Assembly: GCA_022414725.1 (NCBI GenBank)
Contig: CM039464.1
Location: 61,989,358-62,053,357, forward strand
Reading direction: 5' to 3'
DNA from: Microglena sp. YARC
Lineage: Eukaryota; Chlorophyta; Chlorophyceae; Chlamydomonadales; Chlamydomonadaceae
DNA length: 64,000 nt
In this document: piece after piece, positions 8,110-64,000 of the stretch
How positions within the stretch are numbered: the stretch's first letter is position 1
Layout of the letters: the number at the start of each line of letters is the position of its first letter
The notes under the pieces: generated by a model
Seen by the model: only the letters and a program-made list of their open reading frames with translations
Database searches by the model: none
Told to the model about the DNA's origin: nothing
Program-made: the position numbers and the translations under genes

Positions 8110-8465
8110 ATGACTCCCTTGCACGAGCACCGATTGTTCCCACCCACTACGCAAAAGAGCTGGTACATGTAGCCAATGACAAAAACAGTGCAGGTAGATT
8201 GTTTTCTCAACCGCCTATAGCCCAATGTGGATGGATGGGAAGCTTTGTTGTGTATTGAAACGATTTTCACGCCAGAAAGTGGGACCCCGTCTGCTACGAG
8301 TAGCTACTTCCTCCACTACTTTCGAAACTCCCAGCCTCCCTCCTCGCCAACGACCTACTCCTTGCCCTTTCTCGCTGTCTGCAGATCAGGTTCTTAACTA
8401 TTCGCTCCCTGCCCTGCCGGTTACTGCTAAAGCGTTTTTCTGTGTCGCTAGCGTCACACGCTTAG

Positions 8466-15900: not shown

Positions 15901-16776
15901 CAAGACCACAAACAAGAAGCTCCCCTGCACCTGGCTGCCCACAGAGGACACCTAGCTTGTGTGAAGGCTCTCCTAGACAGTGGAGCCATAGTAGATGCAA
16001 AGAATGGGCTGGGACAGACTCCCTTGCTGTCTGCCATTGATCTGGGACACACAGAATGTGTGAAGGCTCTCCTAGACAGTGGAGCCATTGTAGATGCAAA
16101 GGATGAAATGGGACAGACTCCCTTGCTGTTGGCTATTGATCAGGGCCACACAGGATGTGTAAAGGCTCTTGTGGACAGTGGAGCCATGGTAGAAGCTGAG
16201 GACAAGCAGGGACAAACTCCCTTGCATTGGGCTGATTTTCAGGGACACGCAGAATGTGCGAAGGCCCTCATGGACAGTGGAGCCATATTAGATGCAAAGA
16301 ATGTGCTGGGAAAGACTCCCTTGCTGTTGGCTATTGATCAGGGCCACGCAAGATGTGTGAAGGCTCTCGTGACCAGTGGAGCCATGGTAGAAGCTGAGGA
16401 CAAGCAGGGAAAGACTCCCTTGCATTTGGCTGCTTATCAGGGACAGGTAGAGTGTGTTATGGCTCTCGTAGACAGTGGAGCCATGGTGGAAGCTGTGGAC
16501 AAGCAGGGAATTACTCCCTTGCATTGGGCTGCTTTTCAGGGACACGCAGAATGTGCGAAGGCTCTCATGGACAGTGGAGCCATAGTAGATGCAAAGAATG
16601 TGCTTGGAAAGACTCCCTTGCTGTTGGCTATTGATCAGGGCCACGCAAGATGTGTAAAGGCTCTTGTGGACAGTGGAGCCGTGTTAGAAGCTGAGGACAA
16701 GCAGGGAATGACTCCCTTGCATTGGGCTGCTTATCAGGGACACGCAGAATGTGCGAGGACTCTAGTGGACAGTTGA
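12982..16776 (+). CDS. RING finger and ankyrin-repeat protein, copy B
   Basis: An open frame of 1,264 codons starts at ATG 12,982, with an in-frame TGA 12 bases upstream. Residues 8-55 form a C3HC4 RING (C11, C14, C29, H31, C34, C37, C49, C52), expected to recruit an E2 enzyme. A short linker follows, then ankyrin repeats to the end, a substrate-binding solenoid. Together this suggests a cytosolic or nuclear E3 ubiquitin ligase. Plant XBAT ligases carry the RING at the other end, so this order is unlike them. The stop at 16,774-16,776 arises in the middle of an ankyrin unit (CAGTTGAGCC where its neighbours have CAGTGGAGCC), and the same frame then continues to 17,301. It is therefore either a recent nonsense mutation or a truncated protein lacking the last five or so repeats. 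Confidence 0.9.
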   Translation: MEDSSFSCPSCPYCLEDLGHCGGPTTLPCGHNGCLECFTLIVNSRDPSCPLCRIPLDPIVPLKQNSQFKEVLEALARLASYVSELCLGTAFPPLLTISNELSPSPTSCKQSRAEEECKWPLHPDSLCQACEAGDLEGVQSLLRRGREETYSCSDHHRALHAAAKGGHLECLSDILEHVARVLGPAAPANMVNLKAVWARRSALHESVVSGQRRCVAALLEAGAMSDEVDAMGDSPLVSATERGDVECALLLLDAGAHFPPNILMSHTQAQPEVVATKPICAGWTLLHFASWGVPVHHVKATLKRGVVLFEAAGPDGPSPCFVSASFLSHLKPSDSVVSVLLSCSSSVSVNAKDIMGMTPLHLAATGGQAAHMADLLSKGATAEAQDAFGRTPLHHAARQGHLPCVLALLDHGAKVDTQSMDGHTALHEAVDSGRVCCYPALLSGGAQLESQTNCGWTPLHLAVIRGSVLCCTTLLDQGAKVDAQGCYGWTPLHVAAGRGATDCLSALVDSGAALSAVDEAGSTPLHQAAAEGHMNCVILLLSKGADVNEVGLCGMTALHECASHGHTECVELLLSMGAGVDMRCREGLTPLHCAASRGHAECVRLLLEHDGVDVDARSQDGMTPLLYAASAGSLDCVMAVLNKGGSVGAADKWLRTALHHTADRDCVLALLTHGAKVSAKAEDGSTPLHHAASLRSAGSLIALLDSGAKTDVKCKGGLAPLHVAAQHKHPECVIALLNKGAKVNVQGQDAWTALHYAVDPMLRTPEACLMALLSKAESRVMPMSDAIPSVHQVAVRGWWATGNPHLHAPQQSALISEDVRCVVALLDKGAKVDAQSVDGVSSLHQAAIVGNVDCVQALMDRGAKVDVPAKGGLTPLHQAAEAGHTRIVIALLKKMCMEDVLMCKADVQNKDGVAPLHLAVRAGHPECVNALLVMNAKVDVQTKDGRTPLHVAAQEGHAACLEALLVGGANVNAQDHKQEAPLHLAAHRGHLACVKALLDSGAIVDAKNGLGQTPLLSAIDLGHTECVKALLDSGAIVDAKDEMGQTPLLLAIDQGHTGCVKALVDSGAMVEAEDKQGQTPLHWADFQGHAECAKALMDSGAILDAKNVLGKTPLLLAIDQGHARCVKALVTSGAMVEAEDKQGKTPLHLAAYQGQVECVMALVDSGAMVEAVDKQGITPLHWAAFQGHAECAKALMDSGAIVDAKNVLGKTPLLLAIDQGHARCVKALVDSGAVLEAEDKQGMTPLHWAAYQGHAECARTLVDS

Positions 16777-17301
16777 GCCACGGTAGAAGCTGCGGACATG
16801 CAGGGATGGACTCCCTTGCATTACGCTGCTTTAGGGGGACACTCTAAGTGTGTGAAAGCTTTAGTGGACAGTGGAGCCATGGTAGAAGCTGAGGACGAGG
16901 ATGGAAAGACTCACTTGCATGAGGCTGCTTATATGAAACACGCAGACTGTGCGAGGATTCTAGTGGACAGTGGAGCCATGGTAGAGGCTGCCGACAAGCA
17001 GGGAAGGACTCCCTTGCATTGGGCTGCTGATCAGGGACAGGTAATGTGTGTGAAGACTCTCGTGGACAGTGGAGCCATGGTAGAAGCTGAGGACACGCGG
17101 GGATTTACTCCATTGAATTGCGCTGCTTCAGTGGGACACGCAAAGTGTGTGAAGGCTCTTGTGGACAGTGGAGCCATGGTAGAAGCTGAGGACAAGCAGG
17201 GAAAAACTCCCTTGCATTGGGCTACTTCTGAGGGGCATACAGAATGTTCGAAGGCTCTCCGAGACTGTGGAGCCAGCTTAGGCACAGTGGAGAAGCAGTG
17301 A
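16777..17301 (+). pseudogene. Ankyrin 3' remainder behind the nonsense codon
   Basis: The frame of the gene at 12,982 resumes directly after the TGA and stays open to a TGA at 17,299-17,301. It adds about five ankyrin units and the same C-terminal end (CGASLGTVEKQ) as copy A. Without the nonsense codon the protein would have 1,439 residues. Confidence 0.85.
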
Positions 17302-29114: not shown

Positions 29115-29480
29115 CCTCACAATGCAAGAAACACCAGCTCCATCACCACCACCGCCACCGCCACCTCTATCCCTTCAGTCCCCTGCTTCCTGCGTCTTAA
29201 TCACTCAATCAATTGAACCACTGTATATGCTGTGCGTTCAGATGAGTGCGGAAGAAGAGACACCAGCTGCTGCAGCTCCATCACCACCACCACCACCACA
29301 ACCTCCACTACCACCTTCACCACCACCACCATCCCTTCAGTCCACTGCATCCTATGTCTCAATCACCCGATCATGTCGATCACTCAATGTCTCAATCATG
29401 TCAATCACTGTAACTGCCGTGCGCGCAGACGAGAACGCGGCGCACAGATGAGAACAAGGCACGTGCAGAAGAAGAAGCAC
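29115..29480 (+). repeat. Repeated start of acidic exon 1
   Basis: ACACCAGCT(C/G) followed by CACCACC-rich sequence occurs near 29,130, and CAG/ATGAGTGCGGAAGAAGAG near 29,240. The apparently used copy, CAG/ATGAGAACAAGG, is at about 29,449. The copies share GCAGAAGAAGA and CTAGCTGCTGCAGC-like segments and each follows a possible acceptor. This makes the 5' boundary of exon 1 uncertain. Confidence 0.5.
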
Positions 29481-29521
29481 TAGCTGCTGCAGCACCACCC
29501 CCAGATGTCAAACCCGACCCC

Positions 29522-32500
29522 ATGGATATAGATGATAAGCCTCCCGCAGAGGCAGCTGATGCGCCAGCCCCACCTGAAGCGGCAGCAGAGCCAGCTACAG
29601 AGCCAGCAACAGAGCCATCAGCAGAGTCAGCAGCTGAAGCAGCAGTGGAACCAGTGGCAGAGCCAGCAGCCGAACCAGCAGCAGAGCCCGCGCCGGAACC
29701 TGAGGCAGAGCTAGCAGCAGAAGCAGCCACAGAGCCAGCTACAGAGCCAGCAACGGAACCTGCGGCAGAGCTAGCAGCAGAGCCAGCAACAGAACCATCA
29801 GTGGAACCAGCAGCAGAGCCAGCAACAGAACCCACGGCAGAGCTAGCAGCAGAGCCAGCAACAGAACCAGCAACAGAACCAGCAACAGAACCAGCAGCGG
29901 AACCACCAGGAGAAGCTGATGCTGAACCGGCAGCAGGTACCCCAGAGTAGTGATATGTGATGTACTTTGTGCTGTAACAATGGCACTTCTAGATGGTGGT
30001 GGTTGTGGGGATTTTGTGTGTGGGGTGGGTGGGTTGGGGGGGTCTGGTGTGGTATGTGGCGTTGGGGGTGTGGCGAGGGCTGGCTCCCCATGGGTAGTGG
30101 TCTGGACAGGGTGGTGTAGGGCATAGGGTTGAGCGCGTGGGGTGTAGTTCGCAGCAGATGCAGCAGCAGAAAGAGTTTAAGTGTAGTCAGCAGCAGATCC
30201 AGAAGCAGAAAGAGTGTAAGTGTAGTCAGCTGCAGATCCAGCAGCAAAAAGAGTGTAACTGTAGTCAGCAGCAGATCCAGCAACAGAAACTGCAGGCTTA
30301 GCAGATGCTTAGCAGGGTCAATGTAATTAATACAATTAATGCATGCAATTATTTAATTAATGTCTTTCATTAATTTTTTATTTTTGATCATGAGATACAA
30401 TCTGCCATTTTAATTCTTAATTTGTGTTTTTTATTTTATTTATATCTTATATTGCAATCTGCCATTTTACATGGGGTGCTAGTTGGCAGCAGCAAGTTGG
30501 GATATCTGTTTTGCATGGTGTGAATAATCTGTGATGCAAGGTGTGACTCTCTCCCACCTCACTCTCTCCCACCTCTCTCTCTCCCAACTATATCATTCCC
30601 ACCTGACCCTCTCCCACCTCACTCTCTCCCAGCTACATCATTCCCACCTCACTCTCTCCCACCTCACTCTCTCCCACCTCACTCTCTCCCAGCTACATCA
30701 TTCCCACCTGACTCGCTCCCACCTGACTCTCTCCCACCTCACTCTCTCCCAGCTACATCATTCCCACCTCACTCTCTCCCACCTCACTCTCTCCCACCTC
30801 ACTCTCTCCCACCTCACTCTCTCCCACCTCACTCTCTCCCAGCTACATCATTCCCACCTGACTCTCTCCCACCTCACTCTCTCCCAGCTACATCATTCCC
30901 ACCTGACTCTCTCCCACCTCACTCTCTCCCACCTCACTCTGTCCCACCTCACTCTCTCCCACCTTACTCTCTTCCAACTCACTCTCTCCCAACTCACTCT
31001 CTCCCAACTCACTCTCTCCCAACTACATCATTCCCACCTCACTCTCTCCCACCTCACCCTCCCCCACCTCACTCTCGCCCAACTACATCATCCCACCTAA
31101 CTCTCTCCCTTTCTCCCCTATAGCCCCTGTTGAAGATGCCACCGCCCTACCCCACCCAGCTGACCCCGCGGGCCCACTGCCACCCCCTCCTCCTCTACCC
31201 ACCCCTGGGGACAAGCCACCTAGGGACGCCTCCCCTAGGCTAGACATAGGAGAGGCAGACGACAAGAACAGGAGTCGAGACAAACACAGAAGTCGAGACA
31301 GGCGTGATCGTGAGCGTGATAGGTCCGGGAGAGACAAGGACAGGCGCAAGTCAAGGTCTCGCTCCCGAGATCGCAGGTAACCATATCCAAAAATCGTTTT
31401 TTATTGTTGTGGGTGGGTGAGGGGGGGGGGGGCTACGTGATTGGAATGGTAGGGACAAGGACAAGCGCAAGTCCATGTCTGTCTCTCAAGATCGCAGGTA
31501 ACTATCTCATCAAATCACTTTTTGTTGTTGGTGGTGTGGATGGGTGGGTGGGTGGGGGGCTACGTGATTGGAACCAAAGAGATAAGGACAGGTGCAAGTC
31601 CAGGTCCCGCTCTCCAGATTGCAGGTAACTATCTCAGCACAGCACTGTTTGTTGTTGGTGGGTGTGTGTGTGGGTGTGTGTGTGTGGGGGGGGGGGCTAC
31701 GTGATCGGAACCAAAGAGATAAGGACAGGTGCAAGTCCAGGTCCCGCTCTCCAGATTGCTGGTAACTATCTCATCAAATCACTTCTTGTTGGTGGTGTGG
31801 ATGGGTGGGTGGGTGGGGGGCTACGTGATCGGAACCAAAGAGATAAGGACAGGTGCAAGTCCAGGTCCCGCTCTCCAGATTGCAGGTGACTATCTCATCA
31901 AATCACTTCTTGTTGGTGGTGTGGATGGGTGGGTGGGTGGGGGGGGGGGGGGGCTACGTGATCGGAACCAAAGAGATAAGGACAGGTGCAAGTCCAGGTC
32001 CCGCTCTCGAGATTGCAGGTAACTATCTCAGCACAGCACTGTTTGTTGTTGGTGGGTGTGGGGGGGGGGGCTACGTGATCGGAACCAAAGAGATAAGGAC
32101 AGGTGCAAGTCCAGGTCCCGCTCTCCAGATTGCTGGTAACTATCTCATCAAATCACTTTTTGTTGGTGGTGTGGATGGGTGGGTGGGTGGGGGGGGTGAG
32201 GGGGTAAGTGATCAGAACGGTAGGAACAAGGATAGGCGCAAGTCCAGGTCCCGCTCTCGAGATTGCAGGTGACTATCTCAGCACAGCACTGTTTTGGGGG
32301 GGGGTGAGGGGGTAAGTGATCAGAACGGTAGGAACAAGGATAGGCGCAAGTCCAGGTCTCGCTCTCGAGATTGCAGGTAACTATCTCAGCACAGCACTGT
32401 TTTGGGGGGGGGTGAGGGGGTAAGTGATCAGAACGGTAGGAAACAAGGATAGGCGCAAGTCCAGGTCTCGCTCTCGAGATTGCAGGTAACTATCTCAGCA

Positions 32501-33047
32501 CAGCACTGTTTTGGGGGGGGGGGGGGGGGGGGGGGGGGAGAGGGTAAGTGATCAGAACGGTAGGAACAAGGATAGGCGCAAGTCCAGGTCTCGCTCTCGA
32601 GATCACAGGCAACTATCTCATCACATCACTGTTTCTTTTGGTGTGGGGGGGCTACGTGATATGAATGGTAGAGACACGGACAGGCGGAAGTCCAGGTCTC
32701 GCTCTCGAAATATCAGGTACCTATCTCATCACAGCACTGTTTTTTGGATGGGCTTCGTGATTCGAACGGGAGGGACAAGGACAGGCGCAAGTCCAGATCT
32801 CGCTCTCGAAATATCAGGTAACTATCTCATCGCATCACTGCTTCTTTTGGGGGCTACGCGATTGGAACAGTAGGGACAAGGACAGGGAATGTCCAGGTCT
32901 CACTCTCCAGATATCAGGTAACTATCTCATTACAGCACTGTTTATTTGGGGGGTTACATGATCAGAACGGGAGGACAAGGACCGGCACAAGTCCAGGTCT
33001 CGCCTTGAGATTTCAGGTAACTATCTCATCAAATCACTTTTGTATGT

Positions 33048-33108
<61 letters not shown>

Positions 33109-36100
33109 CTACGTGATTGGAACGGTAGGGACAAGGACAGGCGCAAGTCCAGTCACACACTGTTAACATATCCGGGATAATACAACCATAGCAGGCGCAA
33201 GTCCAGTCACACACTGTTAACATATCCGGGATGATACAACCATAATAGGGACAGTGTAACCATCAGCATCATCAAAATTACTGCTCAACCCTACCTACTG
33301 TTTGCTTTCTACTTGCAGGAGAGGCAAATCCTCCCGCCCCAGCCGCTCCCGCTCTCGGGACACTGCAACCCAAATCATGGATAATGCAGCAATACCAGGG
33401 ATAACGTAACCATCAGCACCATCAAAATCACTGTTCGACCCTACCTATTGTTTGTTTGGAATCGCAGGAGGAGCAAGTCCTCCCAATCCAGCCGCTCGCG
33501 CTCGCGCTCACGGGACACTGCAAACAAAATCATGGATAATGCAACCGTACTAGGGATAGCGTAACCATCAGCATCATCAAAATCACTGCCCAACCCTATT
33601 GCTTGTTTGGCATTGCATCATTAAAATCACTGCCCAACCCTATTGCTTGTTTGGCATTGCATCATTAAAATCACTGCCCAACCCTATTGCTTGTTTGGCA
33701 TTGCATCATTAAAATCACTGCCCAACCCTATTGCTTGTTTGGCATTGCATCATTAAAATCACTGCCCAACCCTATTGCTTGTTTGGCATTGCATCATTAA
33801 AATCACTGCCCAACCCTATTGCTTGTTTGGCATTGCATCATTAAAATCACTGCCCAACCCTATTGCTTGTTTGGCATTGCATCATTAAAATCACTGCCCA
33901 ACCCTATTGCTTGTTTGGCATTGCATCATTAAAATCACTGCCCAACCCTATTGCTTGTTTGGCATTGCATCATTAAAATCGCTGCCCAACCCTATTGCTT
34001 GTTTGACATTGCATCATTAAAATCACTGCTCAAACCTATTGTTTGTCATAACTTGCAGGAGGGGCAAGTCCTCCCGCTCCAGCCGCTCCCGCTCCCGGGA
34101 CACTGCAACCAAAATCAGGGATAATGCAACCGTACTAGGGACAGTGTAACCATCAGCATCATCAAAATCACTGCTCAAACATATTGTTTGTCTTTACCTG
34201 CAGGAGGGGCAAGTCCTCCCGTTCCAGCCGCTCCCGCTCCAGGGAGAGGCGCAAGTCCTCTCAAAAGTCCCGCTCCTGCTATAAGGACTTGCAATTTCTA
34301 GCCTTTAAATGATCCTCCTATTTTCAAAATGGGGTCTTGGTCCCAATTGCATTTGCGATCACTGTAACCAAAATCAGCATCATCAACCTCAGCCGAAAAA
34401 TGTGTTTGTATGTTTTGAACTGCAGGAGGGGTAAGTCCTCCCGCACCAGCCGCTCCCGCTCCAGGGAGAGGCGCAAGTCCTCTCGAAAGTCCCGCTCACG
34501 CTCACGAGATCGACGCAGGAGCCGTAGCAAGGACCGCCACCACCGCACCAGCCGTAGGGAGAAAACCCGGTCTCGAAGCCGGGACCGTCGGCGAAGCCGC
34601 AGCACGTCCGAGATGCGGCGCAGTGCTGTGAAGCCTGACCTTCCGATTCCGCTGGTAGGGGGTGGGGGCCAGATTCCAGCTGGCAACCCCATGGCACCAG
34701 ATGCCCTGATCGCCTGGAGGGAGCAACAGCTACGTCAGCAGCAGCTTATGCTTCAGCAGCAGGTGTGAACTATGCATCTATAACCGGCTATTACACTTGT
34801 TTTCTAGCTGGCTGTCAATTTTTTTCTCAGTCCTGAATAAGGTGGTGGGGGTGGGGGCCAGATACCAGCTGCCAACTCCATGGCGCCAGATGCTCTGATC
34901 GCCTGGAGGGAGCAACAGCTACGCCAGCAACAGCTTATGCTTCAGCAGCAGATGTGAACTATGCATCTATAACGCGTGTTTTCCAGCTGGCTGTCTAGTT
35001 GTTTCTTAGTTCTGAAAAATGTGGGGTGTTGGGGCCAGATTCCAGCTAGCAAACCCATGAAGATCAGTAGCCATACAACCTGTCAACTGCTGAGGATGCA
35101 ATGCAGCAGCTAATGTTGCGGCAGCAAGTGGCAGTTGCAGTGCATTTCCTTTGAGAGACTTAGCTTGACTTGGCTTGACTTGGCTTGGCTTGACATGGCT
35201 TGACTTGACTTGACTCGGCTTGGCTTGACTTGGCTTGGCTTGACTTGACTTGACAGGTCTACATTCAAATCAGTTGTCGCACTAATGGCTACTTGCTGAG
35301 GATACAATGCAACAGCTAATGTTGCAGCAGCAAGTGGCAGTTGTTTTTATACATTTGGACTGCATGCCTCAGCTTCTGAAGGACCCTCCACCCCACACTC
35401 GTGGTTTTTGCCAATGCTGCTGTTGCATGGCAGTGTACTGCAATGTAGACAACTGAACTGCATGCCTCAGCTTCTGGACAACCATCCACCAGGCACTAGT
35501 GGTTTTTGCCAATGCTGCTGTGTTATGTCAATGGAAGCTTCCATGCGTAGCCCCAAAAAGAGACAGTGGATGGAGGGGGCTTGTCTTAGGTCAGCAGTGG
35601 TATGTTCATGATAGTGTACTGCAATATAGACAACTGTACTGTATGGATCAGCTTCTGAACAACCATCCACCCGGCACTAGTGGTTTTTGCCAATGCTGCT
35701 GTTGCATGACAGTGTAGTGCAATATAGACTACTGCACTGCATGGATAGGCTTCTGAACAACTATCCACCCGACACTAAAGGTTTTTGCCAATGCTGCTGT
35801 TGCGAAGACTGCCACTCCCGCCTTAGCTTTGGCCAATGCCAACGCCCTGAAGCAAGCTAAGGAAGCAAGGGCAGCCCGACGTGTGTATGTGGGCAACTTG
35901 GCACCAGGAATGGTGAGTGCTGTGTGCTGTGTGCAGTGTGTTACTGGTGAGTGCAGTGTGCAGTGTTAATGGCGTGTGCAGTGTTAATGTGTTAATGGTG
36001 CTTACTGTGTGCAGTGTTCGTGTGTGTATGGGGACTGCAGTGTGCAGTGTTCCTGTGTTTATGGTGCGTGCTGTGTGCAGTGTGCAGTGTTAATAAAGTG

Positions 36101-38049
36101 TGCCGTATAAAGATAGTGTGCTGTATAAAAAAAGTGTGAAGTATAAATAAAGTGTGCTGTAGAAATAAAGCAGGCAGTATTTCAAATGAAGTGTGTCGTA
36201 TAAATAAAGTGGGCAATATAAATAAAGCATGTTGTAGAAATAAAGCAGGCAGTATTTTAAATGAAGTGTGTAGTATAAATAAAGTGGGCAATCTTAATAA
36301 AGCGGGCAGTATTTTAAATCAAGTGTGCGGTAGAAAATAGGTTTGGTGTAGAAATAAAGTGTGCAGTATAAATTGTTCATGAATTCTCAGCAAGTCTACC
36401 GCTTGTGTTGAAAAACTTATGTACAATTGAAATATTATTGTATTAAACACATTAATCATGATGCTGGTCACCGCTGCAGAGAAATATTATGTGCAATTGA
36501 AATATTGTTATATTAAACACATTAATCATGATGCTGGTCACCGCTGCAGAGAAATATTATGTACAATTGAAATATTGTTTGATTAAACACATTAATCATG
36601 ATGTTAGTCACCACTGCAGAGAACTATGACGTATAATTGGAATTTTGTCATATTTAACACATTAATCATGATGCTGGTCACCACTGCTGAGAACTATGAT
36701 GTACAATTGAAAAATTGTTATATTAAACACATTAATCATGATGCTGGTCACCACAGCAGAGCACACACACAACTGGCAAGCTGGCAAGATTGTCTGCGTT
36801 CGTGAAAGATTATGCTTGTAATAGTTATTATTATAGTAGTAATAATAATAATAATATTAGTAGTAATAGTAAATACAAATATTAAAAACGAATCTTGATG
36901 TTGGTCACCACAACAGAACACACACAACTGCACAACTGCACAAAATGATTGCAACACTCAACTGACAAACATACAAGGAAGAGGCACTAGACCAAATGCA
37001 AATACCTCCTTCAATTCCGAATTGTGTGACATATCCACATGTAACATGTATCGAATTGTGTGACAGACCCACATAATATGTATGTATGTATGTTACAGTC
37101 CAGGGGATAGCCAATTAGGCTTGGGGGATTTGCACAACCTCGAAATAATATTATAATCAATGAGATGATAATAAGATAATTGTCAATAAGATAATAATAA
37201 GATAATTGTCAATAAGATAATAATAAGATAATAGTAAGATAATTGTCAATGAGATAATAATAAGATAATTGTCAATAAGATAATGATAAGATAATTGTCA
37301 ATAAGATAATAATAAGATAATTGTCAATAAGATAATAATAAGATAATTGTCAATAAGATAATAGTAAGATAATTGTCAACAAGATAATAATAAGATAATT
37401 GTCAATAAGATAATAATAAGATAATTGTCAATAAGATAATAATAAGATAATTGTCAATACGATTATTGTCAATAAGATAATAATAAGATAATAATCAATC
37501 ATATGACATAACAATTCACCACATGACCGCAATGTGGTTCAAGCTCTTGAATATAGTGATGTACATAGTGATGTACATTTTGAAGCTTTATTGTACTTTG
37601 GTATTTGTTGAAATAGTTTGGGGCATGATTACAATGTGGTTCAAGCACTTGAATATTGTGATGTACATTTTGACGCTTCATTGTACTTCGGTATTTTTTT
37701 TTAATAGTTTGGAACATGCTTGCAATGTGGATAAAAGTATCAATTGATAGTCGATTGTTTCGGTTGTCTCATACGGCCTTGGAACTGATTACCACCCCAC
37801 CACCACTCCACCTCCCTCCCCCCCTCCCTCCCTCCCTCCCCCCTCCCTCTCTCTTTTCCCCCTCTCTTTCTTTTCCCCACTCTTCTCCTCCCTCCCTTTC
37901 TCTCCCTCTCTTTTCTTTTCCCCCCTCTTTTCCTCCCTCCCCCCTCTGTCTCTCTCTTTCTCTCTCCCTTTCTTTTCCCCTCTCTTCTTATCCCTCTCTC
38001 CCTTTCCCTTCCTCTCATCCCCACTCCCCCCCCCCTTCCTCCTTTCCCA

Positions 38050-38092
<43 letters not shown>

Positions 38093-41000
38093 CCTCTTTC
38101 TCCACCCCTCCTCCTCCACCCACCCCACCCACCAACCATGCACACTGGCTGCATGCCTCCCAAGGCTATCTGATGGGCCCATGAGTCCCTCTAGACCCAG
38201 TAAGCGACCAGGAGAGCTGCCGCCTCTGCTCACCAGGGTTGTGCAGTACGGGCAGTACGCGCTAAAATCCGTATCCGTACTCGTTTCCTGAAAGTTGAGT
38301 ACGTATACGGTGAGTTCGTTTGCATCCAATAAATAAATACCTTGTTTTTCTTTCTTCTTTTCTATTTTTGTTATGGTGTTCATAAGCTCTCCTTGGCACC
38401 ATCAAGCTGCGGGCACATTTGAAGTCCAGTAGGTAACAGAGGAAAATGTAATCAGCATCATCTTCATCATTATCATAGCATCATCACAGCATCGTCATAG
38501 CATCAGCATAGCATTGGTAGTGATGATGGGGGTCCTATGTACTCCACTAGACTACTTCAAGTAAGCCCCCTTCATGGTTCATCTTCGCATTTGCATGTAG
38601 GTTGCACAAAATTGTTGCCTGGTACTGCCTGGTACTGCCTGTAATGAGAACGCCTGGGGGGGTATGCCATGTTGCATGTGTGTGTGTGCATTGTGTGTGT
38701 GTGCATTGTGACCCTGTCACCTCCTCTGTGCCTTCTCATGTAGTTGCCTCACCCTGACTCGTTGTTCAGGTGACGGATGCTCAGCTGAGGGCAATCTTCA
38801 ACAGTGCTCTCATGGCAGCCTTCCCTGGCTCCAACGTTCCAGGTATGTGCTGCTGGTCGCATTCCTTGCTTGTGTGAGTTGCTTGCTGATGTCAAGGGCA
38901 TTTCTACCCCCCCAAAACATGAAGAACCAAACTCCAAACACCAAAAAACATACATCAAACACCCGACCTTCAGCAGTGCTCTCATGCCAGAATTCCCTGG
39001 CTCCAACGTTCCAGGTGTGTGCTGCTGCTCGCATTCCTTGTGTGTGTTGCTTGCATAAGTCAAGGGCATTGCCCCCCCCCCCCCCCCCCCCCCCCCCTAA
39101 CACCAAACACCAAACACCGAACATTAAACACCAAAACACCAAACATCAAACACCCGACCTTCAACAGTGCTCTCATGGCAGCCTTCCCTGGATCCAACAT
39201 TCCAGGTATGTGCTCCTGCTTGCATTCCTTGCTTCGTATTTGTTGCTTGTGTGTGTTCCTTGCAAATGTCAAGGGCATTTCTGCCCCCCACCCCACCCCA
39301 CCCCTAACACCGAACATTAAACACCAAACACCAAACACCAAACACCAAACACCAAACACTCGACCTTCAACAGTGCTCTCATGGCAGCCTTCCCTGGATC
39401 CAACATTCCAGGTATGTGCTCCTGCTTGCATTCCTTGCTTTGTATTTGTTGCTTGTGTGTGTTCCTTGCAAATGTCAAGGGCATTTCTGCCCCCCCCCCC
39501 CCCCAAACCACCAACACTCGACCTTCAACAGTGCTCTCATGGCAGCATTCCTGGTTCTAACGTTCCAGGTATGTGCTCCTGCTTGCATTCCTAACTTCGT
39601 ATTTGTTGCTTGTGTGTGTTCCTTGCAAATGTCAAGGGCATTTCTGCCCCCCCCCCCCCCCCAAACCACCAAACCACCAAACCACCAAACCACCAAGAAC
39701 CGAACACCAAACACCCGATCTTCAACAGTGCTCTCATGGCAGCATTCCCTGGATCCAACATTCCAGGTATGTGCTCCTGGTCGCATTCCTTGCTTCGTAT
39801 TTGTTGCTTGTGTGTGTTCCTTGCAAATGTCAAGGGCATTTCTGCCCCCCCCCCCCCAAACCACCAAACCACCAAGAACCAAACACCAAACACCCGATCT
39901 TCAACAGTGCTCTCATGGCAGCCTTCCCTGGATCCAACATTCCAGGTATGTGCTCCTGGTCGCATTCCTTGCTTCGTATTTGTTGCTTGTGTGTGTTCCT
40001 TGTAAATGTCTTGGGCATTTCTGCCCCCCAAAACCACCAAGAACCAAACACCTAACACCCGATCTTCAACAGCGCTCTCTTGCCAGCATTCCCTGGCTCT
40101 AACGTTCCAGGTATGTGCTGCTGGTCGCATTCCTTGCTTGTGTTGTGCTCCCCCCACCTTCACCCCCATCCCGAAAACGATCTTCAACAGTGCTCTCTTG
40201 GTATGTGCTACTTCTTGTTTGTATGTACTGCTTATAGCATGCATATGTAACTTGCACACGTCGAGTGCATTTCTGGCCCCCCAAAACAAAGCAGAATACC
40301 CCAAAGGCAACCCAACCCCCAACCCAGGTCCACTTGCAGACGTCGAGAGTACTTCTGGCCACCAAGAACAAAGCAATCCACCCCAGTCCCAATGACAATG
40401 ACTCCCAATCCCAACTACAACCGCAAGTACCAACCGCCGCTCGCCATCAACACACACACACCACCACCAAACGCCCACGCACCCACTAACTCCCACCGAC
40501 CACAACCTCACCCACTAATCACAACCACAACCTCACCCATCAACCTCGACCCACCAACCACGCACCACGCACCCATCATTAAATACCCACGCACCCAAAA
40601 ACTCCCAACCCCGCCCACCCACCCCAACCACTAACTCCCAACCCCCCCACACACACCCCACCACTAACCACAACCCCACCCACCCCACCACAACCACACC
40701 CACCCACCCCACCACCAACTCCCCACAGGAATGGAGTCTGTTATTGAAATCAACATGACGGTCAGGGACCCACAAACTCCCACCAACCACAACCTCACCT
40801 ACCAACCACAACCCCCACTGGTAAACTCCCAACCCCACCACAACCCCACCCACCCACCCACCACTAACTCCCAACTCCACCACGACCCCACCCACCCCAC
40901 CCACCACTAACTCCCAACCCACCACAACCCCACCCACCCACCCACCAACAACCCCACCACTAACTCCCAACTCCACCACAACCCCACCCACCCACCCCAC

Positions 41001-44000
41001 CACTAACTCCCAACCCCACCACAACCCCACCCACCCACCCCACCACTAACTCCCAACTCCACCACAACCCCACCCACCCACCCACCCACCCCACCACAAC
41101 CCCACCCACCCACCCCATCACCAACCCCACACACACCCACCCCACCACTAACCCCCCACAGGAATGGAGCCTGTTGTTGGAATCAACATGGACGGTCAGG
41201 GGCGATACTCATTTGTTGAATTCAGGAACCCGGACATGGCCACCGCATCCATGCAGCTGTCTGGACAGGTGGGTGGGGTTGGTGTGTTGAGTGCAAGGGT
41301 TTGGGTAGATGGTGTGGTGTGTTGAGTGTGTGGGGTGGTGTAGTGCAAGGTTATGTTGTTGTTGAATCCAGGAGCCCAAACATGGTAAACGCGTCCATGC
41401 AGCTGTTTGGACAGGTGTGTGGGTGGTGTAGTGTAGTGCAAAGTTGTATTGTTGTCGAATTGAGTGGGATGTGTGGTGTGGGTGGTGTGGTGTAGTGCAA
41501 GGTTTTCTCGTCGCTGCTGCTAGTAGCACAAGTGCTTAATTATGTACCTTGGCGTTTTAGGCATCCATGCAGCTGACTGGACTGGTGTGGGTGGTGTGGT
41601 GTAGTGCAAGGTTCACATGTTGCTGCTGCTAGTAGCACAAGTCCATAGTTATGTACCTTGGCGTTTTAGGCATCCATGCAGCTGATTGGACTGGTGTGGG
41701 TGGTGTGGTGTAGTGCAAGGTTCACATGTTGCTGCTGCTAGTAGCACAAGTGCATAGTTAGGTTCCTTGGCGTTTTAGGCATCCATGCAGCTGACTGGAC
41801 TGGTGTGGGTGGTGTGGTGTAGTGCAAGGTTCACATGTTGCTGCTGCTAGTAGCACAAGTGCATAGTTAGGTTCCTTGGCGTTTTAGGCATCCATGCAGC
41901 TGACTGGACTGGTGTGGTGTAGTGCAAGGTTCGCATGTTGCTGCTGCTAGTAGCACAAGTGCTAAATTATGTACCTTGGCGTTTTAAGCATCCATGCAGC
42001 TGACTGGACTGGTATGGGTGGTGTGAGGCATAATTAAAAGCGGCTACGATCTCACTTACTGAGTTCGCAAGTGCACAATGTGGTGTGTGGTGTGGTTTGG
42101 AGCATGGGTGTGGTGCAAGTTTTTGCGTTAGTGCGAATTTGTGTATCTTGTATTCGTGTTTTGGGTTTGTGTTAGTGTTTTATGCAGCTGTCTGGACCAG
42201 TGTGGGTGGTGTGGTGTGGTGCAAGGTTCTCATGTTGCTGCTGCCAGTATCACAAGTCCATAGTTATGTACCTTGGCCATTCAAGCATCCATGCAGCTGA
42301 CTGGACCGGTGTGGGTGGTGTGGTGTGGTTCAAGGTTCTCATGTTGCTGCTGCGTGTAGCACAAGTCCATATTTATGTACCTTGGCCATTTAAGCATCCA
42401 TGCAGCTGACTGGACTGGTGTGGGTGGTTTGGTGTAGTGCAAGGTTCACATGTTGCTGCTGCGTGTAGCACAAGTGCTAAATTATGTGCCGTAGTGTTTT
42501 AAACATCCATGCAGCTGAATGAACCGGTGTAGGTGGTGTGGTGCAAGGTTATCATTTAATTCACGCTTTCCCCTTCTGCTGTTTCAGTTTACTCTGCATG
42601 GGCGGGCTATGAGCGTAGAAAGGCCGTAGGACTTCATGCAGCTGACCAATGCGGTTTCAGCTGCCCAGGCTGAACCCATACACATGCTGTTTAAACCTAA
42701 ACCCATACCCACCCGTACCCACCCATACACACCCACACAATCCATACACACCCATACACACCCATACAATCCATACACACCCATACAATCCATACACACC
42801 CATACACACCCATACACACCCACACACCCATACACACCCATACACACCCACACACCCATACACAATCCATACACACCCATACACACCCATACACACCCAT
42901 ACACACACCCATACCCATCCATACACACCCTGACAGGTAACTCTGCATGGAAAGGCGATGACTGTGGAAAGGCCGCAGTACTTTATCCAGCTGACTAATG
43001 TGGTTTCAGCTGCTCAGGCTGAACCCATACACATGCTGTTTAAACCTAAACCCATACCCACCCGTACCCACCCATACCCACCCATACACACCCACACAAT
43101 CATACACACCCATACACACCCATACACACCTATACACACCCACACAATCATACACACCCATACACACCCATACACACCTATACACACCCACACAATCATA
43201 CACACCCATACACACCCATACACACATAAACACACCCACACAATCATACCCACCCATACACACCCACACAATCATACACACCCATACACACCCATACACA
43301 CCTATACACACCCACACAATCATACACACCCATACACACCCATACACACCTATACACACCCACACAATCATACACACCCATACACACCCACACAATCATA
43401 CACACCCATACACACTCATACACACCCATACACACTCATACACACCCATACACACCCACACAATCATACACACCCATACACACCCATACACACCCATACA
43501 CACCCACACAATCATACACACCCATACACACCCATACACACCTATACACACCCACACAATCATACACACCCATACACACCCATACACACCCATACACACC
43601 CACACAATCATACACACCCATACACACCCATACACACCCATACACACCTATACACACCCACACAATCATACACACCCATACACACCCATACACACCCATA
43701 CACACCCATACACACCCACACAATCATACACACCCATACACACCCATACACACCCACACAATCCATACTCACCCATACACACACCCGTACCCATCCATAC
43801 ACAACCTGATAGGTAACTCTGCATGGAAAGGCGATGATCGTGGAAAGGCCGCAGGACTTCATCCAGCTGACCAATGCGGTTTCAGCTGCTCAGGCTGGTG
43901 CTATGAACATGGCCTCTATGCTGACTGGCGCTGCACCGATGGCCCAAAATGGCAAAACAAAATGCGCAATTTCAATGTGTGCTTTCTGCTGTTTCAGGTT

Positions 44001-46771
44001 ACTCTGCTTGGGCGGGCCATGAGCATAACGCCATAGTAACATGTCAGTGTAGAGATTTACACATCAGCACCTTGCTCTGCAACAGCTTAAAACCTTAACC
44101 CGTGCACACCTATACGCACCCTGACAGGTTACTCTGCATGGAAAGGCGATGACTGTGGAAAGGCCGCAGGACTTCATCCAGCTGACCAATGCGGTTTCAG
44201 CTGCTCAGGCTGGTGCTATGAACATGGCCTCCATGCTGACTGGCGCTGCACCGATGGCCCCCGTTCCCACCGGCCCCCCCAGTGCCCCCGGTGGCGAAAC
44301 GTGTGTATGTGGGTAACCTGGCCGCCGGTATGGTGACTGACTCTCAGCTAAGGACCATCTTCAACAGCTCGCTCTCAGCCGCTTTCCCAGGTTCGGCTAT
44401 CCCTGGTGAGTTGGGGGTGGGGTGGCGGGGGTAGGCGGTGGGATGGTGAGGATAGGGGGTGGTAGGGAGTGGGGCGGAGGTGGGAATAGTGGGTTGGGGA
44501 TGGGGAGGAAAGCGATGGCGAAACGTGTGTAAGCTTTAGGGGATAAGAAGTGGGCGCGGAACTGTCTAAGTCGCTTTCCCAGGCTCAGCTACCCCTGGTG
44601 AGTTGGGGGTAGGGGGTGGGGCCGGAGGTGGGGATAGTGGGCGTGGAAAGGGATGGCAAAACGTGTGTAAGATTTAGGGGATAGGGAGTGGGTGGGGTGG
44701 GGGAAAGAGGTGGGGGTGGGGGAGGATCCCTCTCAGCTACTTTCCCCGCTTGGGTATTCCTGGTGAGTTGAGGGTGGGGGTGGGAGGATCCCTCTCAGCT
44801 ACTTTCCCCGGCTTGGGTATTCCTGGTGAGTTGGGGTGGGGGTGGGGTGGTGGCGGAGGTGGGAATAGTGGAAGTGGGGGATGGGGAGGAAAGCTGTGGC
44901 GAAGCGTGTGTATGTGGGTAACCTGGCTGCTGGTAAGGTGACTGACTCTCAGCTAAGGACCATCTTCAACAGCTCGCTCTTGGCTGCTTTCCCAGGTTCG
45001 CTATCCCTGGTGAGTTGGGGGTGGGGTGGGGTGGTGGCGGAGGTGAAAATGGTGAGGGTGGGGATGGGGAGGAAAGCTGTGGCAAAGCGTGTGTATGTGG
45101 GTAACCTGGCTGCCGGTATGGTGACTGACTCTCAGCTAAGGAACATCTTCAACAGCTCGCTCTCAGCTGCTTTCCCAGGCTCGGCTATTCCTGGTGAGTT
45201 GGGGGTGGGGAGTGGGGGTGGTAGGGATTGGGGTGGTGGGGATAGGGGGTGGGTGGTAGGGATAGGGGGTGGGAGTGGGGAAAGGGTGTGGGGGCGGATC
45301 TGTCTCAGCTGCTTTCCCAGGCGCGGCTATTCCTGGTGAGTTTGGGGGGGGGAGTGGGGGTGGTGACATGGGAGTGGGAAGAGGGGAGTGGGGGCGGAGG
45401 TGGGCGGAGGTGAGAAGAGTGGCGGTGGGGGAGTGGGGGCGGAGGTGAGAAGAGTGGCGGTGGGGGGAGTGGGGGCGGAAGTGGAAATAGTAGGGGTGGG
45501 GGGAGGTGGGCATGACAGCTCTCTCTCTCGGCTTCTTTTTGGCAGTGCCCTCCCTTCTGGGGGGCCCTCCCCCCCAGATTCGCATATTGTCCGTAAGTAG
45601 ATCCGACCATCCGACTCACGACCAAGATGAAGCCTGACATGTCAGCCAACTGTCTCATAACTAACTGGCTTTGGTTAGCTCCATCGTTCCCACCTGTCGT
45701 TCCGTTGCCAATACTCTCCGCCAATTTTCCGCGTCGCTTGTGACGCTGTATAGGACTTGTTCCCGCACCATATCCACCCTCACCACACCACACCACCAAC
45801 AATATCACCATCACCACACCAGCACACCACCACACCACCAACAACATCACCACCACTACCATCACCATCACCATGTCCACCCTCACCACACCACCAACGA
45901 TATCACCACCACCATCACCACACCATCACACCACCACACCTCCAACAACATCACCACCACTACCATCACCATATCCACCCTCACCACACCACACCACCAA
46001 CAATATCACCACCACCATCACCACACCACCAACAAGATCACCACCACTACCATCACCATCACCACAACACCATCACCGCACCACACCACACCCTCACCAA
46101 TGTTTGTTTTCAATGTAGGTATGGAGCCTGTGGTGAGCATCAACATGGATGGCCAAGGCCGCTATGCCTTCTTAGAGTTCAGAAACCCAGATATGGCGAC
46201 GGCTGCCTTGCAACTCAGCGGACAGGTGGGCACCTAGTTCGAAAAAACATAATAAAATCGTTTTTTTGTTGGTCAGGTGTTTGTCTATTTTGAACCTGAA
46301 TGTGTGTTAGCTTCAGTCCAGGGGGCAAAAACGTGACCTAAGCATGCAACAATCATGCTTAGGTCACTTAAGTTTACCAACCTACACATCATGCGCCCTG
46401 TTGCACCTTGCCTATTTAGGTCACTTAAGTTTACCAACCTACACATCATGAGCCCTGTTGCACCTTGCCTATTTAGGTCACGTTTTTGCCCAAATTGCCG
46501 CTATAAATGTATTAAAACAAGGCCCTAAATGGCCCTAAAAAGCTATACAAACTAAACAAAGCTATAAAAACACTGTCCCTGGATGAGGCCTACAACCATA
46601 CAGCTAGAAAACCCCACTTTCAGATTTGAAAATCAAATCCCTGAATAAGCCCTATTGCACATGCCTGTTTAGGTCACGCTGCATGGTAAGGCCATGACGG
46701 TTGAGAGGCCTCAAGACTACGTAGACCTAACCAAGAATCCAGTTGCCGCTGCTTCGCTTGGTATCCAGTGA
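29522..46771 (+). CDS. U2AF65-like splicing factor: acidic repeat, RS domain and two RRMs
   Basis: My exon model: (1) up to 29,936; (2) 31,124-31,376; (3) 34,426-34,762; (4) 35,781-35,912; (5) 38,770-38,842; (6) 41,162-41,268; (7) 44,128-44,405; (8) 46,119-46,225; (9) 46,673-46,771 with stop TGA. All junctions are GT-AG and phases agree, except one extra C in exon 7 (run near 44,285) that breaks the frame. Exon 1 encodes MDIDDKPP and EPATEPAAE repeats; exons 2-3 encode an RS domain (RDKDRRKSRSRSRDR) and a Gln-rich helix (REQQLRQQQLMLQQQ). Exons 4-7 give an RRM with RNP2 VYVGNL and RNP1 GRYSFVEF, ending TVERPQDF as in U2AF65 RRM1. Exons 7-9 repeat it (VYVGNL, GRYAFLEF, TVERPQDY) with identical intron positions. 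The C-terminal UHM domain of U2AF65 is absent. The true start, upstream of 29,522, is unknown. Confidence 0.75.
29580..29930 (+). repeat. Acidic Ala/Pro/Glu-coding repeat
   Basis: Units of 12-18 bases around GAGCCAGC(A/T)ACAGAACC encode EPATEPAAE in frame within exon 1. It is low-complexity and likely disordered. The large minus-strand Ser/Gly/Ala frame here is its shadow. Confidence 0.9.
30531..31115 (+). repeat. Pyrimidine-rich 15-bp array before exon 2 acceptor
   Basis: About 35 units of CTCACTCTCTCCCAC, interspersed with AGCTACATCATTCCCAC, run to within 10 bases of the CCCCTATAG acceptor at 31,123. On the coding strand it is effectively a 580-base polypyrimidine tract. U2AF binds such tracts, so in this gene it could be a cis target of its own product (inference). 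Confidence 0.9.
31430..33170 (+). repeat. Array of duplicated RS-exon ends with donors
   Basis: About 14 copies, spaced roughly 100-135 bases, of the 3' end of exon 2 (GACAAGGACAGGCGCAAGTC, CTCGAGATTGCAG) followed by GTAACTATCTCA. Each retains a plausible 5' splice site, some altered (GCTGGTAAC, CAGGTGAC, CAGGCAAC, TCAGGTACC). G-rich spacers lie between them, including a run of about 46 G at 33,061-33,108. The full exon is the most upstream copy. Confidence 0.9.
33319..34320 (+). repeat. Array of duplicated acceptors of RS exon 3
   Basis: Four partial copies of the start of exon 3, each after a good acceptor: exon-like starts at 33,319, 33,467, 34,059 and 34,204. The full exon begins at 34,426. 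They share GGCAAGTCCTCCCG, CCAGCCGCTCCCGCTC and, in most, CGGGACACTGCAAC. Each copy later runs into a stop or non-coding sequence. Confidence 0.9.
33594..34030 (+). repeat. 44-bp tandem repeat
   Basis: About ten nearly identical units of CATTAAAATCACTGCCCAAC, CCTATTGCTTGTTTGG, CATTG inside intron 2. It derives from sequence that precedes each duplicated acceptor. Confidence 0.93.
34840..35340 (+). repeat. Decayed copies of exon 3 end and Gln-rich segments
   Basis: 34,845-34,956 repeats the end of exon 3 (GATGC(C/T)CTGATCGCCTGG, CTTATGCTTCAGCAGCAG) but its donor is changed to ATGTGA. Shorter pieces follow at 35,020-35,060, and CAGCTAATGTTGC(G/A)GCAGC recurs at 35,105 and 35,310. A TTGACTTGGC repeat lies at 35,158-35,256. 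Confidence 0.75.
35385..35800 (+). repeat. Duplicated acceptors of RRM exon 4
   Basis: Four copies of CACT(A/C)..(G)GGTTTTTGCC + AATGCTGCTGTTG, spaced about 90-190 bases. The last continues into the coding exon at 35,781. Units also share CAACCATCCACC and CAGCTTCTG. Confidence 0.8.
35913..36380 (+). repeat. GTGTGCAGTGTTAATG and AAATAAAGTGTG repeats
   Basis: The donor ATG/GTGAGTGC is echoed as CTG/GTGAGTGCAG 40 bases later. It passes into short GTGTGCAGTG units and then 15-30-base units of AAATAAAG(T/C)(G/A)(T/G)G. The many AATAAA motifs here belong to an intron repeat and should not be read as poly(A) signals. Confidence 0.8.
36410..36775 (+). repeat. 66-bp tandem repeat
   Basis: Five units containing ACAATTGAAATATTG, TTAAACACATTAATCATGAT and GCTGGTCACC lie within intron 4. 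Confidence 0.9.
37140..37500 (+). repeat. AT-rich tandem repeat
   Basis: About 12 units of AAGATAATTGTCAATAAGAT with AATAAT spacers within intron 4. Confidence 0.92.
37790..38110 (+). repeat. Pyrimidine-rich tract (CCTCCCT, CTCTCT)
   Basis: About 320 bases that are almost entirely C and T on the coding strand, including (CT)22 at 38,051-38,094. It lies in intron 4 about 650 bases before the exon 5 acceptor. Confidence 0.9.
38960..40210 (+). repeat. Array of duplicated exon 5 ends with donors
   Basis: Seven near-complete copies of the exon 5 end (TTCAACAGTGCTCTCATGGC, TTCCCTGG.TC, AACNTTCCAG) each run into GTATGTGCT. Donors fall at 39,015, 39,206, 39,412, 39,569, 39,767, 39,946 and 40,111, with a truncated copy at 40,200. 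The used donor is 38,843, the most upstream. Spacers share TTGCAAATGTCAAGGGCATT and poly-C runs. Confidence 0.92.
40400..41160 (+). repeat. CCACCCACCCCACCACTAAC array with one duplicated acceptor
   Basis: Short C/A-rich units fill the intron up to the exon 6 acceptor (CCCCCCACAG at 41,161). A damaged copy of acceptor plus exon start lies at 40,715-40,770 (CCCCACAG/GAATGGAGTC); it lacks one G compared with exon 6 and would shift frame. Confidence 0.88.
41340..42530 (+). repeat. Array of duplicated exon 6 ends with donors
   Basis: About ten copies, mostly 115-130 bases apart, of GCATCCATGCAGCTG(A/T)CTGG followed by AC(A/T/C)G/GTGTGGGTGG. The first (41,361-41,415) keeps more of the exon. Spacers share GTAGTGCAAGGTTC, CATGTTGCTGCTGC and TAGTAGCACAAGTGC. 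Confidence 0.9.
42588..44127 (+). repeat. ACACCCAT satellite with duplicated exon 7 acceptors
   Basis: ACACCCATAC/ACACCCACACAATCAT units (42,700-42,930 and 43,050-43,800) separate copies of the exon 7 start at 42,588, 42,937, 43,813 and 43,998; the full exon starts at 44,128. All begin (G/T)T(A/T)ACTCTGC after an AG. The first has an in-frame TAG (GGCCGTAGG). Two copies read AG/GTAACT, an acceptor fused to a donor-like hexamer. The His/Thr/Pro/Tyr frames here are satellite translations. Confidence 0.92.
44406..45540 (+). repeat. Array of duplicated exon 7 ends with donors in G-rich spacers
   Basis: Two long copies of the second RRM start (44,893-45,012 and 45,079-45,194; GTGTATGTGGGTAACCTGGC, ACTGACTCTCAGCTAAGG) and at least four short ones each end in CCTG/GTGAGTT(G/T)GGG. 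The spacers are GGGGTGGGGG-rich. Confidence 0.9.
45775..46105 (+). repeat. CACCACCAT/CACCACAC array
   Basis: C/A-rich trinucleotide-like repeat just before the CAATGTAG acceptor of exon 8 (46,118), resembling the 51,960-52,550 array in the FAS1 gene. Confidence 0.88.
46350..46490 (+). repeat. Duplicated acceptors of the last exon
   Basis: TTAG/GTCAC(T/G)T starts at 46,363, 46,420 and 46,477, the later two in a 57-base repeat containing CACTTAAGTTTACCAACCTA and GCCCTGTTGCACCTTGCC. The used acceptor, GTTTAG/GTCACGCTGC, is at 46,672/46,673 and follows the same TTGCAC..TGCCT context. Confidence 0.85.
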
Positions 46772-62559: not shown

Positions 62560-64000
62560 GTGATAGAGATTTTGCTTGTTCGCTTGCGTGTTTGTTTGTT
62601 TGCTTGTATGCTTGTTTGTTTGTCTGGCAATTGTCAGAAGAGGACTTACGCTTTAGGTGAGTGTGATAGAGAGCATGATTTATTTATCCGTTGTTTGATT
62701 TTTTGTTTGTTTGTTTTGCTTGATTGCTTGTTTGCTTGTTTGTTTGCTTGTTTGTTTGTTTTGCTTGTTGGTTTGCTTGTTGCTGTTTGCTTGTTTGTTT
62801 GTTGTTGTTTGTTTTTTTGCTTGATTGCTTTATTTGCTTGTTTGTTTGCTTGTTTGTTTGTTTGTTTTGCTTGATTGCTTGTTTGTTTGCTTGTTTGTTT
62901 GTTTGTTTTGCTTGATTGCTTGTTTGCTTGTTTGTTTGCTTGTTTGTTTTGCTTGTTTTTGTTTTGCTTGATTGCTTGTTTTGCTTGTTTGCTTGTTTGT
63001 TTGTTTGTTTTCTAGATTGCTTGTTTGCTTGTTTTCTTTGCTTGTTTGTTTTTGTTTTTGCTTGATGCTTGTTTGTTGTTTGCTTGTTTGTTTGTTTGCT
63101 TGTTGTTGTTTGTTTGCTTGTTTGTTTGTTTTTGCTTGCTTGTTTGCTTGTTGTTTGCTTGTTTGTTTGTTCGTTTTGCTTGATTGCTTGTTTGCTTGTT
63201 TGTTTGCTTGTTTGTTTGTTTGTTTTGCTTGATTGCTTGTTTGCTTGTTTGTTTGCTTGTTTGTTTGTTTGTTTTGCTTGATTGCTTGTTTGTTTGTTTG
63301 TTTGTCTGGCAATTGTCAGAAGAGGACTTAAGCTTTAGGTGAGTGTGATAGAGAGCATGATTTATTTATCCGTTGTTTGATTTTTTGTTTGTTTGTTTTG
63401 CTTGATTGCTTGTTTGTTTGCTTGTTTGTTTGTTTGTTTTGCTTGATTGCTTGTTTGCTTGTTTGTTTGTTTGTTTGTTTGTTTGTTTTGCTTGTTTGCT
63501 TGTTTGCTTGTTTGTTTGCTTGTTTGTTTGTTTGTTTTGCTTGTTTGCTTGTTTGTTTGCTTGTTTGTTTGTTTGTTTTGCTTGATTGCTTGTTTGATTG
63601 TTTGTTTGCTTGTTTGTTTGTTTGTTTTGCTTGTTTGCTTGTTTGTTTGCTTGTTTGTTTGTTTGTTTTGCTTGATTGCTTGTTTGCTTGTTTGTTTGTT
63701 TGCTTGTTTGTTTGTTTGTTTTGCTTGTTTGCTTGTTTGCTTGTTTGTTTGCTTGTTTGTTTGTTTGTTTTGCTTGATTGCTTGTTTGCTTGTTTGTTTG
63801 CTTGTTTGTTTGTTTGTTTTGCTTGATTGCTTGTTTGCTTGTTTGTTTGCTTGTTTGTTTGTTTGTTTTGCTTGATTGCTTGTTTGCTTGTTTGTTTGCT
63901 TGTTTGTTTGTTTGTTTTGCTTGATTGCTTGTTTGCTTGTTTGTTTGTTTGTTTGTCTGGCAATTGTCAGAAGAGGACTTAAGCTTTAGGTGAGTGTGAT
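62560..64000 (+). repeat. TTGCTTGTTTG array with 650-680-bp higher-order units
   Basis: TTGCTTGTTTGTTTG microsatellite blocks are separated by an identical segment, TCTGGCAATTGTCAGAAGAG to TTTAG/GTGAGTGTGATAGAG + AGCATGATTTATTTATCC, at 62,622, 63,304 and 63,956. A related CAGGAGAGGAATCAAGCTGC + AG/GCAAGTGTGATAGAG lies just before, at 62,532. Frames of Cys/Leu/Phe/Val or Lys/Gln/Thr/Asn are repeat translations. Confidence 0.92.

Follow-up and report, generated by a model that had tools for sequence, protein, structure and literature searches.

Introns of the green alga Microglena sp. YARC contain tandem arrays of their own splice junctions—that is, the end of the upstream exon with its donor, or the acceptor with the start of the downstream exon, repeated in the same direction within the intron—as found in 39 of 60 sampled introns from 28 genes. 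Coding constraint is confined to the outermost copy, the one contiguous with the exon, and there is no peak of repeatedness at the junction itself.

Junction copies in a U2AF65-like gene

The window, a stretch of 64,000 nucleotides, comes from an assembly of 568 Mb in 2390 contigs, and the named relatives closest to its proteins are green algae. A nine-exon GT–AG model was built for a U2AF65-like gene on its forward strand. Exon 1 (29441..29936) is an open frame with the donor GTACCC, uncertain in its start and not part of P0001 (EukProt), the nearest database protein with 95% as listed; exon 2 (31124..31376) has GT–AG borders and closing phases, with P0001 running from 31126; exon 3 (34426..34762) follows from the same GT–AG model and its phases; and the acceptor position of exon 4 (35781..35912), in which the first RRM (RRM-a) starts, was taken from P0001. 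Exons 5 (38770..38842) and 6 (41162..41268) continue RRM-a, exon 7 (44128..44405) holds its end, the linker, and the start of the second RRM (RRM-b), exon 8 (46119..46225) continues RRM-b, and exon 9 (46673..46771) includes the stop codon; exons 5, 6, 8, and 9 were placed by the gene model and phases. Exon 7 is shifted by one base at a run of C near 44280, a frameshift that P0001 lacks. Because P0001 otherwise matches the window residue for residue, save for one junction residue and this one skipped base, the frameshift in the assembly amounts to a one-base difference. P0001 itself begins within a 39-bp repeat at 30158-30214 of the window, inside intron 1, and the modeled start of the gene is therefore tentative.

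The product of the gene consists of an RS-rich part and two RRMs. Both RRMs match the first RRM of U2AF65 chains, aligning near the starts of those chains (query 274-370 and 404-491) in a stretch that we take to be RRM1. The U2AF65 large subunit is defined by RRM2 and a C-terminal UHM as well; neither was found in the window gene model, which stops shortly past the second RRM1-like domain—an absence that depends on the model, with Pfam giving RRM_1 only on P0001. Between 44128 and 46771, RRM-b repeats RRM-a, and RRM-b lacks an equivalent of intron 4 of RRM-a, its ATG and GTG being contiguous in exon 7; an intron was thus gained or lost once the internal duplication had occurred. Elsewhere in the window, 99-bp tandem repeats with a 33-aa period (6370-8123 and 15920-17275) look ankyrin-like by eye, and a TTGT-rich array at 62650-64000 includes three copies ending in ctttag/gtgagtgtgat (about 62651, 63333, and 63984), perhaps another donor array belonging to a gene that runs off the window.

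The 40 nt at each exon border were searched for in the adjoining intron, with 200 dinucleotide shuffles as the control. Copies of exon ends were detected at five of the eight donors and four of the eight acceptors, positive ends scoring 24–38 against maxima of 12–19 in the 200 shuffles. Exon ends at introns 1 and 4 did not rise above 200 shuffles, and intron 8 contains a short acceptor motif only. The arrays described earlier from the letters alone (the sequence-only reading) are thus real, although they occupy five of eight introns rather than nearly every one.

Counting copies that cover the junction with a score of at least 20, 14, 1, 7, 9, and 6 were found on the donor side after exons 2, 3, 5, 6, and 7, and 4, 3, 1, and 2 on the acceptor side before exons 3, 4, 6, and 7, all on the forward strand. 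The array after exon 2 (31377..33040) comprises copies of the exon-2 end with its donor about 97–137 nt apart, 13 with GT and one with GC; the copies before exon 3 (33309..34425) have their AG ending at 33318, 33467, 34058, and 34203, with a 44-bp array free of junction sequence lying among them (33571-34046). In intron 3 (34763..35780), the single donor copy has lost its GT, and all three acceptor copies carry TG in place of the AG of the used acceptor. The array after exon 5 spans 38843..40139, and the single copy before exon 6 (40720..40770) has its AG ending at 40728. After exon 6 (41269..42545) the period is about 109 nt in part; the copies before exon 7 (42575..44127), which are separated by long simple-repeat arrays, rise to four AG-bearing ones at a looser score of at least 18; and the array after exon 7 spans 44406..45340. 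In intron 8, a 57-bp array (46359..46481) carries the acceptor with about 6 nt of exon 9, and is weak. The counts given earlier after exons 2, 5, 6, and 7 (14, seven, about ten, and six or more) and before exons 3 and 6 (four and one) were therefore reproduced. The three copies reported before exon 4 exist without their AG, the four before exon 7 were reached at the looser score only, and the three before the last exon were not recovered at a score of at least 20. Mid-exon windows (87 per intron, more than 45 nt from the exon ends) scored up to 32, 40, and 38 in introns 3, 6, and 7; thus, the copying of exon sequence is not limited to the border.

The copies diverge from the used junction by some 2–27%. 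This divergence makes it exceedingly unlikely that the arrays were produced in assembly from noisy long reads, a reading suggested by the one-base homopolymer difference between the assembly and P0001 in exon 7. One inner copy is also present in P0001, a separate annotation whose source assembly may be the same.

Arrays in other gene families

Junction arrays are not special to the U2AF65-like gene, contrary to the earlier suggestion of an organization particular to one splicing-factor gene. The same exon-border test was applied to four Pfam families (chaperonins, dynein heavy chains, actins, and other RRM genes), with introns defined as lying between consecutive profile matches and bounded by GT–AG with matching phase; two exons were paired only when no more than 25 profile positions separated them. 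Genes for tRNA synthetases, kinesins, and tubulins were not part of the sample, so that short-intron genes (e.g., tubulins) lie outside it. Dynein DNA was taken from 11 of 13 loci with more than one match, and copy-like matches were left out when exons were chained by hand; the dynein profile table by itself already displays the copying, an exon matching positions 1-110 being followed by seven more matches ending at 107-108. Among the stretches with RRM genes, 4 of 20 gave a usable intron, the other 16 and L001-L008 being outside the counts, and L014, L015, L021, and L022 gave no intron. A final filter removed twelve introns: three mis-chained ones (L009-1, L010-4, and L012-3, with a profile overlap of more than 20 positions), all of which had scored positive, and nine with low scores, among which L055-1 had been positive at its acceptor. 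This strict filter left 52 introns of 27 other genes, or, with the window gene, 60 introns of 28 genes. Values for copies per junction, the exon-nucleotide median, copy side, the identity of paralogue arrays, homopolymer fractions, and the shuffled-window cut are those obtained before the filter.

In the other genes, 34 of 52 introns were positive (21 donors and 24 acceptors), distributed over 20 of the 27 genes. With the window gene included, the totals were 26/60 donors, 28/60 acceptors, and 39/60 introns, so that multi-copy arrays occur at 54 of the 120 sampled junctions; array-positive introns are present on every contig from C1 to C6. Reverse-complement controls were negative (0/60 per side), as was the comparison of exon ends with introns of other gene sets (0/2080 per side), which bears on introner-like elements, similar sequences shared by introns of many unrelated genes, as far as exon-end queries reach. 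A looser control admitting paralogues, run before the filter, gave 4/2344 for chaperonins and 26/1792 for dyneins, and a few exon ends scored 25–33 in introns other than their own, in a control that took in further introns of the gene itself and those of its paralogues.

The copies are partial exons arranged head to tail on one strand in TRF arrays, with a median spacing of 143 nt (10–90% range, 72–212); in this order, single orientation, and fairly regular spacing they are minisatellite-type tandem arrays. Their exon part has a median of 62 nt, as measured at 31 junctions in the U2AF65-like and chaperonin genes, and the value is unchanged in the 27 that passed the filter. As counted ahead of the stricter filter, the 5′ half of the intron contained 91 of 110 copies of the donor type and the 3′ half 52 of 62 of the acceptor type, the nearest copy being about 145 nt from its own junction. 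Each unit includes an existing exon–intron junction; the intron is therefore older than the array, and it is the intron that grew.

This anatomy bears on two further readings. Genuine tandem exons, alternative or repeated, would account for the presence of exon sequence and splice sites in the copies, and are very unlikely all the same: tandem exon duplication calls for whole exons with both splice sites and for coding constraint, whereas each copy has a single splice site and an incomplete exon, 39 of their 41 exonic indels shift the frame, and codon-position bias among them is not significant. Tandem exon duplication was rejected on these grounds. The origin of introns by tandem duplication of an AGGT-containing exon segment (the Rogers model) can point to tandem duplication at junctions and to AG/GT at many donors, but is extremely improbable, given that the units hold an exon–intron junction that already existed and that intron starts resemble downstream exon starts in 0/60 cases and intron ends upstream exon ends in 0/60. 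Such an origin was rejected for the 60-intron sample, in which the traces of an old duplication could have been erased by decay. G/C homopolymer runs were also rejected as a cause, their mean fraction in 37 array introns (0.034) and in 18 introns without arrays (0.023) not differing significantly (p = 0.32).

The arrays differ among homologous introns and are shared by some. Paralogous dynein genes L043 and L044 have a homologous array in common, with 71–75% identity between the genes (ten longest alignments) and 88–92% between units within one, suggesting that the array predates the duplication of the gene and was homogenized later. Copies are found in an intron of L018 and none in the homologous intron of L017; in the window, introns 6 and 8 lie at matching places, with a donor array in intron 6 only. 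Across 16 arrays of at least four copies, identity does not fall consistently with distance (median rho −0.13, p = 0.35), and the decay away from the splice site that had been read from the window gene was not borne out.

Across all genes, GT is kept in 96 of 113 donor copies and AG in 47 of 57 acceptor copies, so that copies do broadly keep their splice dinucleotides, as had been stated; however, they do so only about as often as they keep neighboring bases (0.91 vs 0.87 for donors, and 0.88–0.93 vs 0.89 for acceptors). On a crude scale, 69 of 110 donor copies equal or exceed the used donor. With dinucleotides kept about as often as their neighbors and with many strong inner donors, neither maintenance nor purging of inner sites is visible. 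Arrays retained for function, with inner sites serving alternative, regulated, or nested splicing, are unlikely. The retained GT, a cassette of P0001 that is in frame and derives from an inner acceptor copy, and the array common to L043 and L044 speak for such a function; the retention at the rate of neighboring bases, direct pairing of inner sites that never keeps the frame in the window gene, and the array missing from the homologous intron of another paralogue (L017 as compared with L018) speak against it. The proposal that the arrays are functional decoys is likewise not upheld by the rate of retention.

Reading frame and the copy that codes

The use of the outermost site was assessed from codon-position bias, frame closure, independent protein models, and orthologues. 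Copies differ from their own consensus by 6.5, 6.0, and 7.8% at codon positions 1, 2, and 3 (p = 0.21), and the used exon differs from the copies by 8.1, 6.6, and 14.1% (p = 6e-15), its third-position excess recurring in each of the four gene sets. Of the indels in the exonic part of copies, 39 shift the frame and 2 are in frame. Significant third-position bias is present only in the used exon, indicating that the outermost copy, unlike the inner ones, evolved as coding sequence.

When donor–acceptor pairs were tried in the eight introns of the window gene, the frame was open in 8 of 157, all of them outermost pairs; for intron 6, exon 7 was truncated before its C run. The sequence-only reading, in which phases close only with the outermost pair, holds for these pairings. 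P0001 nevertheless takes in 29 further residues in frame (33320-33406), a cassette supplied by an inner acceptor copy, and its exon-7 donor lies 15 nt upstream of the modeled one; the cassette and the shifted donor may be prediction errors or real isoforms. For CCT-alpha (L010), a 369-aa model built with outermost junctions agrees at 100% identity with P0029, a protein annotated independently, and P0029 aligns with Chlamydomonas reinhardtii CCT-alpha without gaps at the four modeled junctions, the 4 gap positions lying elsewhere. P0029 ends exactly at an exon border (SVVPG) with its C-terminus dropped, and a further match to that exon end lies behind. These lines agree, save for the P0001 cassette and exon-7 donor, and support the view, put forward already from the first inspection, that the outermost splice site is probably the one used.

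Probably tolerated duplication and splice-site choice

Repeatedness, with ranges obtained by gene bootstrap, was 0.48 in the intron interior, 0.36–0.47 within 20 nt of junctions on either side, and 0.07 in the exon core, toward which it declines over about 100 nt; a mild rise to 0.51–0.54 was seen at 90–160 nt inside the intron on both sides. No shuffled window exceeded the repeatedness cut (0/1385). In the window, many tandem arrays lie wholly inside introns. Without a peak at the junction, the junction does not appear to drive duplication, and duplications that span it seem to be retained almost as readily as those within introns. The earlier idea that introns grow by duplication across the junction is supported in that units span the junction, and not supported in making the junction the driver. 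Growth started at splice junctions by breaks, R-loops, or donor slippage is thus quite unlikely. It would fit the side on which donor-type and acceptor-type copies mostly lie, with the nearest some 145 nt away, and the mild rise within the intron; repeatedness at the junction no higher than in the intron interior and the many entirely intronic arrays argue against it.

The likely explanation is tandem duplication running through introns, with a spill-over of ~100 nt into exons that is tolerated since the outermost pair is spliced. Intronic segments of roughly 70–210 nt would be repeatedly duplicated in tandem, and a duplication that happened to span a junction would copy the exon end with its donor, or the exon start with its acceptor, into the intron. 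As long as the outermost, exon-contiguous pair is spliced, the right protein would be made, junction duplications would survive nearly like intronic ones, and inner copies would drift as non-coding DNA. Both near-neutral survival and homogenization of the copies by turnover are consistent with these observations.

Several near-identical inner sites would then have to be ignored by splicing. Weak inner sites do not explain this neglect, 69 of 110 donor copies being at least as strong as the used donor, and a rule by which the first site transcribed is the first used fails as well, since it would protect donors only and donors and acceptors are equally affected. Recognition of exons as units (exon definition) may favor the exon-proximal site and leave inner sites unused, a step that leans on published work in other organisms. 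According to PMC9225289, intron definition favors the intron-proximal site, and exon-defined minigenes with two identical 5′ splice sites use the upstream one exclusively; against this, the paper gives a preference for the downstream 5′ site in about 60% of human events. The sampled intron lengths (quartiles 734, 1006, and 1662 nt) would suit exon definition. There is also a small chance that inner sites are live, with inner donors and acceptors paired in nested rounds from the inside out and the outermost pair spliced last; if so, nested splicing would explain why near-identical inner sites on both sides are harmless, and extra junction copies would do no harm and may help to remove long introns.

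Related systems share parts of this organization. In C. reinhardtii and Volvox carteri, no class of genomic region exceeds introns in relative repeat density, and repeats are more numerous near intron ends (PMC3887541), and dense intronic tandem repeats are thus common to those algae and this one. The repeats treated in the passages considered of PMC3887541 lie within introns (top motifs GT/AC), units with exon ends and splice sites not being described there; in this alga, unlike in that account, repeatedness has no junction peak and continues into exons. An RdRp gene of potato contains one tandem duplication that extends over an intron–exon boundary and includes a 3′ splice site (PMC4974935); that single duplication made a new intron, whereas here multi-copy arrays leave the exon structure unchanged. 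Rogers-type gain, as presented in PMC3443670 and PMC4974935, likewise involves tandem duplication with splice-site sequence, but in this alga the intron predates the duplication and the signature was found in 0/60. In the [D] stwintrons of Lipomyces, duplications of 4–7 nt have multiplied donors near the intron start; a nested intron can be excised with an inner copy, leaving the outermost donor for the final splice (PMC7138796). Duplicated donors near the intron start are a shared feature; the units here are about 70–210 nt long, include exon sequence, and occur in many genes. Among the titles listed on introns, repeats, and splice sites, none describes multi-copy junction arrays across a genome. 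Multi-copy units of exon end and splice site in many genes, with selection on the outermost copy, thus appear to be new, no earlier description having been found.

The arrays may explain errors in gene models, such as P0001, which takes in an inner copy, and P0029 (CCT-alpha), which stops before copies of an exon end. With close inner copies at nearly half of the sampled donors and acceptors, this alga offers a natural experiment on splice-site choice, in which the inner site would be favored by intron definition and the outer site by exon definition. Overall, introns can grow through their own borders while the protein remains unchanged.
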